DNA from: a virus
Length of the DNA stretch: 24,452 bases
Virus record (IMG/VR): IMGVR_UViG_3300046321_000147
Span: 1 to 24,452 of that record
Direction: 5' to 3' (one strand)
How positions within the stretch are numbered: the first letter of the stretch is position 1; each line of letters begins with the position of its first letter. A program made the position numbers and the translations under genes. Shown here one piece after another: positions 72 through 5,806 of this stretch. The notes under the pieces were generated by a model. That model made no database searches. It was not told the DNA's origin and saw only the letters and a program-made list of their open reading frames with translations.

Positions 72-81
72 GTTATGCCTC
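72..81 (-). repeat. Edge-truncated attC-like site, AAC core only
   Basis: On the minus strand the box GAGGCATAAC exactly complements GTTATGCCTC at 1091-1100, so it closes the last visible cassette. The methyltransferase stop codon TAA lies inside it. The rest of the site should lie at 1-71 and beyond the window; no paired arm can be recognised in the 71 remaining bases. Confidence 0.6.
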
Positions 82-1158
82 ACTTAAAGAAGCATCGTGC
101 AAAGCGATAGCCTTGAATATCTGAAAGGCAACTTGTGGTACTATAGCATTTCCACCTCCTTTGATACTTTCATTTCTCCATTTTGGAAAGGTAATACCGT
201 CCAATTCGGTGGGAATCCCATCATTTCCATCACAAACAGGGGATTGAGTTGGGAAGTTTTCCCAGTATCCTGAAAAGCTCTTTTTTGCAAACTGTCTTGA
301 TTCCTCTTTCCTGTGTTCTTCGCTGGATTGTCGTCCGCTGTTGGTGTCGGTAGAAATTGAACTAATCTCGCAAGTCCCACACTTCCATCCGTTCCGTTCT
401 GATTTATTTTCCTCGGTAGTCCTGAAGTCATTTTGAAAGTGTCGTTTTTGCCTATTATCGCTCCGGTTGTTGCGTCGCTCGAAACAGGAGTTGGAAACAT
501 CATTTTCGCAATTACTTCTTCTAAATTGCCTTTGTTCCTGTTCGCTAATTTTTCGCTGTTCAGGTTGCATCCGTTTACTTTGTTCGCTCTTGGAGTTGGG
601 AGAATTAAATGCGATAAACCAGATTCTATCCCTACGGTGCGGTGCGTTAACACCTCCAGCAGGAAGTAAAAACGGTGTGATTTCGTAGCCTTCATTTTCC
701 AAGTCAGTTTGCACCTCGTCGAAGACCATTCCTCCATTCCAATTAATAAGCCCACGAACGTTTTCGCCCACAATGTACGTCGGCTGAATCTCTCTAATTG
801 CTCTAAGCATTTCTGGCCATAGATGGCGTTCGTCTTCTTTTCCTTTTCTTTTTCCTGCAACGCTATATGGTTGGCAGGGGAATCCTCCAGTAAGGATGTC
901 GATTTTTCCTCTGTGAATAGTGAAATCTGTATTTGTGATGTCATCATAACTTATAGCATTAGGCCAGTAATATTTTAAAATTTGTTTTCCAAAATCATTC
1001 CATTCACAATGAAATACATTTTCCCATCCCATCCATTCAGATGCTAAATCAAAACCGCCAATTCCAGAAAACAACGAGCCGTGAGTAAGCGAGGCATAAC
1101 AATTGCTTGGAGCAATTGCCGTATCAGGTTCAATTTTAAGATGGTCTTGTATTTGCAT
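73..1158 (-). CDS. C5-cytosine DNA methyltransferase, cassette 10
   Basis: Transfers a methyl group from SAM to C5 of cytosine in DNA. Visible motifs: SAM-binding FSGIGG (residues about 30-35), catalytic GGFPC with Cys95, ENV at about 132-134, the HRRDR motif VIII equivalent at about 174-178, and the C-terminal WRNESIKGGGNAIVPQ motif IX/X block. From about residue 185 to 300 the chain is polar low-complexity (Ser, Asn, Gln, Arg, Glu) rather than a recognisable target-recognition domain; this is where a second frame is open (see 141-947). Relatives usually begin Met-Thr-His-Gly-Ser-Leu-Phe-Ser-Gly, but here the Met position is CTT (Leu25). The only in-frame ATG upstream is at 1158, inside the attC-like site, so the first ~22 residues are attC-encoded. 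No restriction enzyme accompanies it, so it is probably an orphan phage or cassette methylase that masks DNA from host restriction. Confidence 0.9.
   Translation of the reverse strand: MQIQDHLKIEPDTAIAPSNCYASLTHGSLFSGIGGFDLASEWMGWENVFHCEWNDFGKQILKYYWPNAISYDDITNTDFTIHRGKIDILTGGFPCQPYSVAGKRKGKEDERHLWPEMLRAIREIQPTYIVGENVRGLINWNGGMVFDEVQTDLENEGYEITPFLLPAGGVNAPHRRDRIWFIAFNSPNSKSEQSKRMQPEQRKISEQEQRQFRRSNCENDVSNSCFERRNNRSDNRQKRHFQNDFRTTEENKSERNGWKCGTCEISSISTDTNSGRQSSEEHRKEESRQFAKKSFSGYWENFPTQSPVCDGNDGIPTELDGITFPKWRNESIKGGGNAIVPQVAFQIFKAIALHDASLSEA
141..947 (-). CDS. Candidate overprinted protein inside the C5 methyltransferase gene (+1 frame)
   Basis: A 268-codon open frame lies wholly inside the methyltransferase gene, one base out of phase, beginning about codon 71 of that gene. 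Its product has non-random structure: a Lys/Arg-rich segment ending in a Cys-Lys-Leu-Thr-Trp-Lys motif, three spaced Leu/Phe-Pro-Thr-Pro motifs (LPTPRAN, FPTPVSSD, LPTPTADD) and a C-terminal LNPLFV...MMGFPPNWT block. The repeated LPTP motifs coincide with the low-complexity part of the methyltransferase frame, as expected if this frame constrains the DNA. I recall similar LPTPTA/LNPxFVxxMMGFPxxWT proteins annotated on their own in phage and gut metagenome data, but cannot confirm it here. Function unknown; it might supply target recognition in trans or regulate the enzyme. The start ATG at 947 is the first of two tandem ATGs. Confidence 0.5.
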   Translation of the reverse strand: MMTSQIQISLFTEEKSTSLLEDSPANHIALQEKEKEKKTNAIYGQKCLEQLERFSRRTLWAKTFVGLLIGMEEWSSTRCKLTWKMKATKSHRFYFLLEVLTHRTVGIESGLSHLILPTPRANKVNGCNLNSEKLANRNKGNLEEVIAKMMFPTPVSSDATTGAIIGKNDTFKMTSGLPRKINQNGTDGSVGLARLVQFLPTPTADDNPAKNTGKRNQDSLQKRAFQDTGKTSQLNPLFVMEMMGFPPNWTVLPFQNGEMKVSKEVEML

Positions 1159-3395: not shown

Positions 3396-4610
3396 TTAGT
3401 CCTTGTATGGGTCAAAAGTTTCGTTTCCTGCCATCGCAACTCCAATCGGCTCTAGTTCGTGAATTACTTTTATTGTATCTCCCATATAACCTAAAACTTC
3501 ATTTAGTTTTTTATAACATTCAGGTGATTCATCTGCTCCAGCTCCACGAAGTTCAATTTTGTGATTTTTCATATTTTCTTTTACTAAATCAAAATCAACT
3601 TTCCCTTTCGCAATTACAGTCGGTCTTTTTCGGCCGTTTTCATCCTTAATCCATTTTGTTTTTCCTGATGCTTCGGTTCTTGACATTACTCGACCTGCTC
3701 CGTGAACAGTTGAATAAAGTGTTTCTTTTGCTAATTCAGTATCAACTCCTTCAATGATAACAGAAGTATCAAGCATATTAGCACCGATAAAACCTAATTG
3801 ATTAGGAAATGCAGGGGTACAACCTTTTCTAACAACCCAATAATCATTTCCGAAGTGATTTTCTTTCCAAGCAAAATTGTGATGATTATGAACCTCAAAT
3901 GTTACTTTTGGATTGTCAAGTATTTCAAGAACTTTAGAAATTACCATATCTCTACCTGCATAAGCATATTCTCCAGCCAAGTGCATTGCTGATAAATATG
4001 ATTGTCCTAATTCGGTATTCGTATCAAACAAAATTGGGAGTTTATCCATTCCTCCTTCGTTGGCTTTATCTTCAAATCCTAAACCTTGAGATAAAGCGAT
4101 AAATCCCATTGCTGTTTTATGTCCAAAACCACGTGAACCAAAATGATTTCCAATCCATAAATAACCATCTGAACCACGAAATAAATCAACGTAATGATTT
4201 CCACTTCCAACTGTTCCAAGTTGATTTTTAGCTAACTGTAATAGTTTTCTTTGGGGTAAAAAATCAGCGTTTGCTATTTTAGCAAAAACTTCGTGGTCAA
4301 CCGGTTCGTCATTGTGGCGACCAACTCCAAAAGAAATTCTTTTAAAAAGTTCATCCATTACCTTTGCAACATTAATATCATCTGCTAAAATATCGGTTCT
4401 AACAGCTTTGTTCCCACAAGCAATATCAAAACCCACACCTGACAAAGAAACTTTATCCTTATAAGCTATTGCACCTCCAATTGGATGCCCATATCCATAA
4501 TGAGCGTCAGCAGTAAGTACCGCTAAATCATTTTCAGAAAAGCAGTTTTTAATTTGAGTAATACATTTTTCGTCTATTATTTCAGCCCCAAATACTTTTA
4601 AATTTTTCAT
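3396..4610 (-). CDS. rtcB: RtcB-family RNA ligase, cassette 7
   Basis: 404-residue RtcB: joins RNA ends carrying 2',3'-cyclic phosphate or 3'-phosphate to 5'-OH using GTP and Mn2+, a route used in tRNA splicing and RNA repair. Motifs: DAHYGYGHPIGG (35-46), GVGFDIACGN with the metal-binding Cys (58-67), GSGNHYVDL (about 135-143), HNHHNFAWKE (241-250), and VHGAGR whose His (about 303) fits the guanylylated residue. Length is typical of the short bacterial and phage class. The start at 4610 (MKNLKVFG) fits the family start. The frame is also open upstream through attC-like site C to an ATG at 4742, giving a possible 44-residue extension. A weak hairpin lies after the stop, before the AAC core. 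Phage RtcB could repair tRNAs cleaved by host anticodon nucleases (inference). Confidence 0.92.
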   Translation of the reverse strand: MKNLKVFGAEIIDEKCITQIKNCFSENDLAVLTADAHYGYGHPIGGAIAYKDKVSLSGVGFDIACGNKAVRTDILADDINVAKVMDELFKRISFGVGRHNDEPVDHEVFAKIANADFLPQRKLLQLAKNQLGTVGSGNHYVDLFRGSDGYLWIGNHFGSRGFGHKTAMGFIALSQGLGFEDKANEGGMDKLPILFDTNTELGQSYLSAMHLAGEYAYAGRDMVISKVLEILDNPKVTFEVHNHHNFAWKENHFGNDYWVVRKGCTPAFPNQLGFIGANMLDTSVIIEGVDTELAKETLYSTVHGAGRVMSRTEASGKTKWIKDENGRKRPTVIAKGKVDFDLVKENMKNHKIELRGAGADESPECYKKLNEVLGYMGDTIKVIHELEPIGVAMAGNETFDPYKD

Positions 4611-4660
4611 ATTTTTTATTTTATTGTTTTTAATTAAATCTTCGGTAAAAATCCACAACT

Positions 4661-4794
4661 GGCGGTAACACGTGCTATACAAAAGAGGCGGTTTAGTACT
4701 CCGCAGAAACAGTCTGGTATAATCAAATTTTGTACTCCGCATCAACTTTAGTGCTAATAATCGCCTCCTTCGTATAGCACCATATGTTATAGGC
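4661..4794 (-). repeat. attC-like site C
   Basis: 134 bp, the same length as site B. AAC core 4786-4794 (GCCTATAAC), GTT core 4661-4669 (GTTACCGCC). Arms 4673-4690 and 4762-4779 pair over 18 positions with only two G-T wobbles on the minus strand. The loop carries an ATG (4740-4742) in frame with rtcB. Confidence 0.86.
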
Positions 4795-4798
4795 AATA

Positions 4799-5806
4799 CT
4801 AAGACTGTGCATAATTTGAACATTCTACTCCTATGAATAAAAAAATATGTGCAATAGTATCAACCGTCCAACCATCTCCCAATAAACAAGCTGCTTCATT
4901 TCTTTTTAGAATACTTGTATATCCATTGGGTACTGTTTGTAATCGTTCCATTTCTGTTTGGTTTAGTTTTCTAATATCGCCATCAACAAAATTTGCTTTC
5001 ATTTCATCTTCGGTCATTTTAGAATACTTTTCGTAAGTTTCTTTATCCTTGAAAATTACATTTATAAATCCTTGTATCATATATCGTCTTAATGATGAAA
5101 ATGTACTACCCGGATTTCTACTTTCGCTTTCAAGCAAACATCTTGCTTTTAATCTATCTGTATATCCATTCTCTAATAAATCTTGAAACTTTATTTTTTT
5201 GTTTTTCGGTTGTGGTATCATTGAATATCTATTACCAAATAAATCAAAACTTTCTGGACCTATATTCGTCCAATAGCTCCTTTGTCTTAATTGCCCTGAT
5301 ATAAGTTCGCTATTTATGTTTGTTGGATAAGTTCCAAGCATTTCACTTATTGCTACATAACTATAATCATCCATCGCCACATTTTCAAGTAAAAAGTATT
5401 TCGGCTCACATTCTTTTAAAAGTCTTAAATACTCATAAAACAATCCTGATTTTTCGCCTTGCAATCCTAATTTTTCTTTATTAGCTGAACTAAAATCTTG
5501 ACAAGGGCTTCCTCCTATCAATAAATCAATTTTAGGCAAATCTCTTGCTTTTACATCTAATACGCTACCTAATTGTATTGTATTTGGAAAGTTGTGTTGA
5601 GTTACTTTTATTGCGTGTGGCTTTATTTCACTTGCAAAGTATTGATTAACTTTTATTCCTGCCTTTTGTAAAGCTAATTGACCACAAGACATACCATCGA
5701 AGAGAGATAGTACATTTAAACCCGTACTGCCTGTAACACGTGTTTGGCAAAAGCTGGGCTTCTGTGGTTCAATCAAGTTCTGTAATTCTATTGAGCTTCT
5801 GTGCAT
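4799..5806 (-). CDS. C5-cytosine DNA methyltransferase, DNMT3-like type, cassette 6
   Basis: C5-cytosine DNA methylase. Motif I NVLSLFDGMSCG (about 31-42), motif IV GGSPCQDFS with catalytic Cys102, the KSGLFYEY segment (119-126), motif VI ENV (141-143), motif VIII QLRQRSYW (172-179), and C-terminal LNQTEMERLQTVPNGYT plus LLGDGWTVDTIAHIF. The GGSPCQDFS plus LFYEYLRLL pattern resembles DNMT3-like phage enzymes. Relatives normally start Met-Asn-Val-Leu-Ser-Leu-Phe-Asp-Gly, but here the codon before Asn-Val is TTA (Leu30). The only upstream in-frame ATG (5806) is in the loop of attC-like site D, so about 26 residues are attC-encoded. Stop is 4 bp before the AAC core, a tight fit typical of integron cassettes. 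No restriction endonuclease is present. Confidence 0.9.
   Translation of the reverse strand: MHRSSIELQNLIEPQKPSFCQTRVTGSTGLNVLSLFDGMSCGQLALQKAGIKVNQYFASEIKPHAIKVTQHNFPNTIQLGSVLDVKARDLPKIDLLIGGSPCQDFSSANKEKLGLQGEKSGLFYEYLRLLKECEPKYFLLENVAMDDYSYVAISEMLGTYPTNINSELISGQLRQRSYWTNIGPESFDLFGNRYSMIPQPKNKKIKFQDLLENGYTDRLKARCLLESESRNPGSTFSSLRRYMIQGFINVIFKDKETYEKYSKMTEDEMKANFVDGDIRKLNQTEMERLQTVPNGYTSILKRNEAACLLGDGWTVDTIAHIFLFIGVECSNYAQS

Follow-up and report, generated by a model that had tools for sequence, protein, structure and literature searches.

In single-chain C5 cytosine methyltransferases the recognition domain is organised by motif IX, and among enzymes built from two chains, the gene for the small subunit of M.EcoHK31I lies inside that for the large one in another reading frame, as in M.EaeI. 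M.EcoHK31I is a natural two-polypeptide C5 methyltransferase (YGGCCR), in which the large subunit carries motifs I-VIII and X, and motif IX is found solely in the small polypeptide (PMC3404938). The natural two-chain enzyme M.AquI has a small chain that comprises part of the variable region together with motif IX, and differs in that no overprinting is reported for it in that source (PMC3404938). Here we analyse a locus of this type in a 24.45 kb virus record (IMGVR_UViG_3300046321_000147, positions 1-24,452; this whole stretch is referred to as the window), where a C5 cytosine methyltransferase frame of 361 aa, alpha (73-1158, minus strand), contains a 268-codon frame, beta (141-947, minus strand), in phase +1. 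Beta is a real, selected gene, which confirms an observation made earlier by a model from the letters alone (the sequence-only reading); it is open, conserved, under purifying selection and bears motif IX, which alpha lacks. Judged from these sequence features, it is highly probable that alpha and beta are the two subunits of one split C5 methyltransferase, to which beta would contribute the recognition part and motif IX. As in the published description of M.EcoHK31I, motifs I-VIII and X reside in alpha and motif IX in beta, whereas the recognition domain, predicted in the large subunit of that enzyme (PMC3404938), would here more probably lie in beta, which selection and disorder favour. The window pair appears to be a further case of the kind known from M.EcoHK31I, and one far more widespread than annotation shows.

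Nested genes of the same or a distantly related family are present in Paenibacillus larvae phages (Redbud gp51, labelled 'g50 internal gene', and Tadhana gp55), which match PHROG 1008, lie in the +1 phase and have diverged to about 30% identity. The 'Mte8-like protein' of Escherichia phage K1ind3, of the same family or a distant relative, is likewise nested in alpha at +1. Single-chain M.HhaI-type enzymes (PF00145) share the fold of alpha, the order of motifs IX and X and a near-equal spacing between them, but have all motifs in one frame and a +1 frame full of stops. An actinophage methylase with a hidden out-of-frame HNH endonuclease (PMC11855218) also provides a second out-of-frame protein; that case, however, is an inserted homing element, whereas beta overlaps the conserved gene body and carries a methyltransferase motif. 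A literature search for overlapping methyltransferase genes has returned nothing relevant.

Beta Is a Selected Gene

Beta begins 211 nt past the alpha start and lies wholly within alpha, which places it in frame +1, and the ATG-to-stop frame described by the sequence-only reading has been recovered with exact coordinates and length. The ATG is formed within the Tyr-x-Asp-Ile codons of alpha, and an ATG is found at that site in most loci. When synonymous codons are shuffled within alpha, the +1 frame remains open in only 0.1% of 20,000 trials, 4.8 stops being expected. A scan of viral contigs with beta gave 290 relatives, and in all of the best 80 (39-59% identical), which were used here, beta is nested in an alpha relative in the identical +1 phase. 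Same-phase nesting has also been observed in all Pseudomonadota matches and in each of the 71 loci with a complete beta among 80 further loci from a scan of bacterial genomes. Another 80 viral loci were obtained by a search with a distant alpha and are hence unselected for beta; the same nesting is seen in 80/80, 76 of them with one full-length beta frame, and the remaining loci comprise two cut by contig ends, one with a frame change and one, L209, with a TAG. The pattern named beforehand as contradicting dual coding, a broken +1 frame beside an intact methyltransferase, occurs among these 80 loci at L209 only, where a single TAG (805-807) interrupts beta and alpha is intact; decay or a sequencing error is possible. 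Among 80 unique loci, comprising viral ones and those of annotated records of phages and plasmids, 11 stops occur in 21,405 codons of the beta frame, mostly where the match overruns beta's own end, and the other sense frame has 1,667 stops and the antisense frames 548-1,424. The control set of 30 single-chain M.HhaI-like C5 enzymes from Bacteroidota shows 748 stops in 12,520 +1 codons and no beta.

Selection has been estimated by overlap-aware substitution ratios from close pairs with codon-bootstrap intervals, separately for three segments of beta. In the +1 geometry the third codon position of alpha is the second of beta, and before the overlap alpha varies chiefly at third positions (0.36). 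With changing (N) and silent (S) substitutions given for alpha and then beta, NN/NS and SN/SS are 0.56 (0.37-0.86) and 0.35 (0.27-0.47) in the N-terminal part of beta (residues 3-110), 0.71 (0.64-0.79) and 0.65 (0.47-0.95) in the variable part, and 0.24 (0.10-0.54) and 0.08 (upper bound not estimable) in the motif IX part, the intervals being only indicative because pairs are non-independent and because the codons of the variable region were aligned by way of beta, a choice that can bias the ratios towards it. Within motif IX the order of variation seen before the overlap is inverted, alpha-silent/beta-changing substitutions amounting to 0.074 versus 0.334 for the reverse. For alpha in the variable part, NN/SN is 1.19 (1.05-1.40) and NS/SS 1.10 (0.89-1.52), which shows no purifying selection on alpha there. 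By the overlap-aware test in both frames, which had been proposed in the sequence-only reading, each of the three segments of beta is thus under purifying selection; with both frames open in relatives and purifying selection measurable on each, the two form an overlapping gene pair under dual selection.

The Catalytic Frame

Alpha matches PF00145 (1.5e-46) and PHROG 363 (2.1e-70), and the motifs of that family, I, IV (PCQ), VI (ENV), VIII and X, as well as its fold, have all been found in it. On the minus strand, as all features of the pair, lie motif I (LFSGIGGFD region, residues 28-36, 1051-1077), conserved and upstream of beta; motif IV (GGFPCQ, residues 91-96, 871-888) with the catalytic Cys 95, an invariant PCQ and, in the window, no stop insert; motif VI (ENV, residues 132-134, 757-765), invariant; motif VIII (HRRDRIW, residues 174-180, 619-639), conserved; and motif X (KGGGNAIVPQV, residues 333-343, 130-162), which aligns to motif X of single-chain enzymes and whose GNA is invariant among alpha relatives, like PCQ and ENV. 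The conserved stretches of alpha are residues 24-184, which hold motifs I-VIII, and 299-351, which hold motif X; nothing between them is conserved. The linker formed by residues 186-298 (265-603), in the place that the recognition domain occupies in a normal enzyme, displays neither conservation nor selection, and in the structure model all residues from 216 to 297 except one have a predicted local distance difference test (pLDDT) score below 50. The polar, unconserved character of alpha opposite the beta motifs (residues ~186-298) agrees with what had been noticed from the letters alone. Of the explanation then given, a degradation of alpha caused by dual coding, the dual coding stands by conservation, phase and substitutions, but the alpha segment, which shows no purifying selection as alpha sequence, is probably not a degraded recognition domain. 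The alpha model matches M.HhaI (Z 23.4, 211 residues, 2.7 Å), and alpha is accordingly predicted by the model to fold as M.HhaI without the small domain. Against single-chain enzymes, the alpha profile has been aligned at residues 16-192 and at the motif X end only. As neither motif IX nor a recognition domain was found in the alpha chain, by this profile alignment and by conservation, we class alpha as the catalytic half of a predicted split enzyme and not as a complete single-chain enzyme.

Beta and Motif IX

The conserved N-terminal domain of beta (residues 7-115, 603-929) lies opposite alpha motifs IV-VIII and has G44, C47, W74, C79, W83 and L97 as invariant or nearly invariant residues. 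It is followed by a variable region (264-602), the probable target-recognition region, in which the three spaced Pro-Thr-Pro (PTP) motifs of the sequence-only reading are present as LPTP at residues 116-119 (602-591), FPTP at 151-154 (497-486) and LPTP at 199-202 (353-342); across beta proteins the number of PTP copies is 0-4, rising with beta length (r=0.60). The LNP...MMGFPPNWT segment that had been read as the ending is found at residues 234-250, with 18 further residues to the C-terminus, and belongs to motif IX (QLNPLFVMEMMGFPPNWT, residues 232-250, 198-254), the conserved end of beta being QLNP.FV.EMMGFP.DWT..PF across relatives. The statement of the sequence-only reading that similar LPTP-repeat proteins are annotated in phages holds: PHROG 1008 (label: DNA methyltransferase; 1.2e-24 for the window beta) is matched by each of the 87 beta proteins that were scanned. 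No match to beta has been obtained among Pfam and NCBIfam families, nor among Protein Data Bank (PDB) sequences with the beta profile or its motif IX segment.

In hhalign the conserved end of beta, alone among its parts, aligns with the motif IX found in single-chain enzymes (RPFTVREYARIQTFPDDW) at a score of 26.5, which is reached by 0/200 column shuffles, their maximum being 17.5. The 30 M.HhaI-like enzymes served as comparator, the second C5 enzyme of the window (4799-5806) with its relatives having been too divergent. To the same single-chain enzymes the alpha C-terminus has been aligned through motif X. In 114/131 loci the glycine codon of beta MGFP lies 65 nt upstream of the GNA codon of alpha motif X, and motifs IX and X are 19-20 codons apart in single-chain enzymes; this collinearity is approximate, since most Pseudomonadota forms have a spacing of 35 nt, also out of phase. 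The motif IX codons are thus situated about where single-chain enzymes have them, but are read in +1, and this position in the other frame is the basis for suggesting that the recognition segment switched frame in an ancestral single-chain gene.

A Predicted Split Enzyme

Motif IX and the conservation together point to beta as the recognition subunit, and we infer that beta is translated, contacts alpha and takes part in DNA recognition and methylation, and that it originated by the frame switch. Alpha would supply the catalytic domain with S-adenosylmethionine binding, the catalytic Cys 95 and motifs I-VIII and X, and beta the small domain, made of its conserved N-terminal part, the variable PTP-rich region as the probable reader of the DNA target, and motif IX. 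Together they would form an enzyme like M.HhaI, whose marks on the phage DNA would most likely protect it from host restriction. The sequence-only reading had offered a recognition or a regulatory partner of the enzyme; recognition is best supported, because beta bears the motif IX absent from alpha, and no support has been found for a regulatory role. We give about even chances to the wider proposal of a frame-switched enzyme throughout the whole clan of such cytosine methyltransferases in phages, prophages and conjugative elements (phages of Bacteroidota, Bacillota and Pseudomonadota), in which the ancestral recognition domain and motif IX moved to +1, over the catalytic domain, and became an obligate second subunit. 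If this were true, many annotated complete phage Dcm genes would be half-enzymes, inactive without an unannotated partner.

Several observations weigh against the split enzyme. The homology of beta to single-chain enzymes covers only motif IX, some 19 residues; no known recognition domain can be recognised in its variable region, and the alignment of that region through beta and the deviating motif spacing in Pseudomonadota count on the same side. The single-chain model of beta is poor (pLDDT 59, predicted template modelling score 0.27), and a Foldseek search with it has given no match. Shine-Dalgarno-like 4-mers precede beta in only 4/136 loci, although the hosts are mostly Bacteroidota.

Alternative Explanations

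A split enzyme could also be arranged with the recognition domain in the variable stretch of alpha and with beta adding motif IX only, as reported for M.EcoHK31I, whose recognition domain has been predicted in the larger subunit (PMC3404938). We consider this unlikely for the present family: the alpha stretch is unselected (1.19 and 1.10) and disordered in the model, whereas beta is selected there (0.71 and 0.65), and the recognition region sits most probably in the beta frame rather than in the alpha segment. The open frame as a chance by-product of alpha codon usage has been rejected, with next to no probability left to it. Composition can keep +1 frames open inside conserved genes, but the permutation P is 0.001 in the window alone, the frame is conserved in 80/80 alpha-selected loci and broken in the single-chain controls, and the selection ratios speak against chance.

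The position of motif IX, located as in a single-chain enzyme, would also be expected if ribosomes shifted from alpha into +1 and produced one long chain of motifs I-VIII, recognition region and IX with no separate beta, and recoding may occur in the alpha gene family, as judged by the stop-insert genes described below. This is nevertheless very unlikely, as the +1 frame is open and purifying-selected far upstream of motif VIII (beta 3-110, SN/SS 0.35), as the ATG at the Tyr-x-Asp-Ile codons of most loci, like the upstream open frame, would be needless for a frameshifted product, and as such a product would lack motif X unless shifted back. Slightly less credit still goes to beta as an overprinted protein with a separate job, be it regulator, inhibitor or anti-restriction factor, rather than a subunit. 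Most of beta has no detectable homology beyond its own family, which would suit such a protein, but its motif IX similarity, the lack of motif IX and of selection in the recognition segment of alpha, and the strict co-occurrence of beta with split-type alpha and its absence from single-chain enzymes all argue for the split enzyme instead.

Distribution and Annotation

Beta-like frames nested in alpha are found in Paenibacillus larvae, Lacticaseibacillus and Bacteroides phages. A Pseudomonadota beta as the query finds matches in 194 annotated phage records, N15, epsilon15 and K1ind3 among them. For N15, epsilon15, K1ind3 and phiEc3, the records of which were inspected closely, the match lies inside the methylase gene at the same phase, coliphage N15 carrying the nested beta frame in gene 58. 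Hundreds of phages belonging to several bacterial phyla thus have the predicted two-in-one gene. In genome samples the beta profile has been detected in 18/398 Pseudomonadota, 3/395 Bacteroidota and 4/398 Bacillota, rates that are slightly high because each sample includes a seed genome known to carry beta. Annotation is inconsistent: often alpha alone is recorded, sometimes both frames, and once beta alone, and the labels for beta read 'g50 internal gene', 'Mte8-like protein' or hypothetical. The single record with beta alone is that of Salmonella phage W5_chr3 (L399:494-1423), in which beta is annotated as 'Mte8-like protein' and a 390-codon frame in the alpha phase is omitted.

Long and ancient overprinted pairs are rare, and the logic of this one would be that each frame encodes one domain of the same enzyme. 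A split enzyme would explain the many phage Dcm-like proteins without motif IX and warns that such genes may be misannotated, or seem inactive if alpha is cloned alone; gene 58 of N15 would allow direct tests in a coliphage. With recognition and catalysis encoded by the same DNA, a phage would also be constrained in how it can change its methylation target.

Stop-Insert Genes Related to Alpha

In some sister alpha genes, from other phages than that of the window, GGFP-CQP is interrupted after its Pro, just before the catalytic Cys, by a 6-nt insert consisting of an in-frame stop and one codon. About 50 such genes have been collected (L402-L451, L457-L459, L461, L051:3051-3073, L187:2229-2251 and L228:2229-2251). 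A pattern scan for TAA and TGA forms gave 50 stretches; once the stop is read through, 50/50 fit the alpha profile, and beta is present in 48. A scan without the stop requirement has returned no sense hexamer in alpha genes, only more TAG forms and unrelated DNA. The second insert codon is always CTN, CCN or TCN and never TTN (48 unique genes), i.e., a codon pairable by the proline anticodon NGG with at most one G-U wobble. Alpha is open past the insert, with motif X kept, in 35/43 genes that end within the contig. Folding of the mRNA just 5' of the insert is roughly twice as strong as in normal alpha genes (-37.7 vs -17.1 kcal per 100 nt), and the 23 aligned sites share a 10-bp stem that ends at the Pro codon and shows pairing in 100% of cells, with compensatory changes at two stem pairs in 15 cells versus a shuffled mean of 3.6. 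The 5' arm of the stem falls within a segment (FG[ST].W in the main group) that 246 normal genes lack, and the trait changes at least 9 times on the alpha tree.

If a peptidyl-tRNA-Pro left CCN, hopped over the stop and landed on the codon after it, GGFP-CQP would be restored exactly, and the cassette is a candidate for a natural programmed ribosomal stop-hop, with readthrough of the insert stop as the main alternative. A 2016 review described 9-nt 'stop hops' in synthetic constructs, no natural in-frame stop hopping being known then, and for bypassing in T4 gene 60 a stop adjoining the take-off codon together with a take-off stem-loop (PMC5009743); the stop insert is similar to the latter in having a stop next to the putative take-off codon and a hairpin. 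Seven stop-insert genes (L406, L412, L426, L427, L431, L438 and L445) further have an in-frame domain inserted between alpha motifs I and IV, which combines an HTH_7-like part with HH.DY..PL...W.C..CH..WH (HNH/treble-clef-like) and resembles a homing endonuclease. Pfam finds HTH_7 in the four scanned, weak zinc-finger matches in two and no HNH, and a parallel of this homing-endonuclease-like domain to mobile cassettes is possible.

Further Observations

In Bacteroides plasmids and genomes (L086, L087, L133, L134, L144, L146, L149, L151 and L158, also L092) the in-frame stops of alpha are all TGA, beta being intact, and those within conserved stretches fall at conserved Trp positions. The neighbourhood does not support TGA recoding as a general code in these elements: the standard code serves for many of the long genes nearby, and a search for a suppressor tRNA in the roughly 20 kb around L149 and L134 has given none. 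The neighbourhood of L149 looks like a conjugative element.

Elsewhere in the window, on the minus strand, positions 1247-1918 encode an N6/N4-type DNA methyltransferase (PF01555, 5.2e-18) and 4799-5806 a second C5-type methyltransferase (PF00145, 1.7e-35), so that by these matches the phage may carry three methyltransferase activities. A putative RtcB-type RNA ligase lies at 3396-4823 (minus strand), its likeness having been recognised by eye (DAHYGYGHPIGG, GVGFDIACGN).
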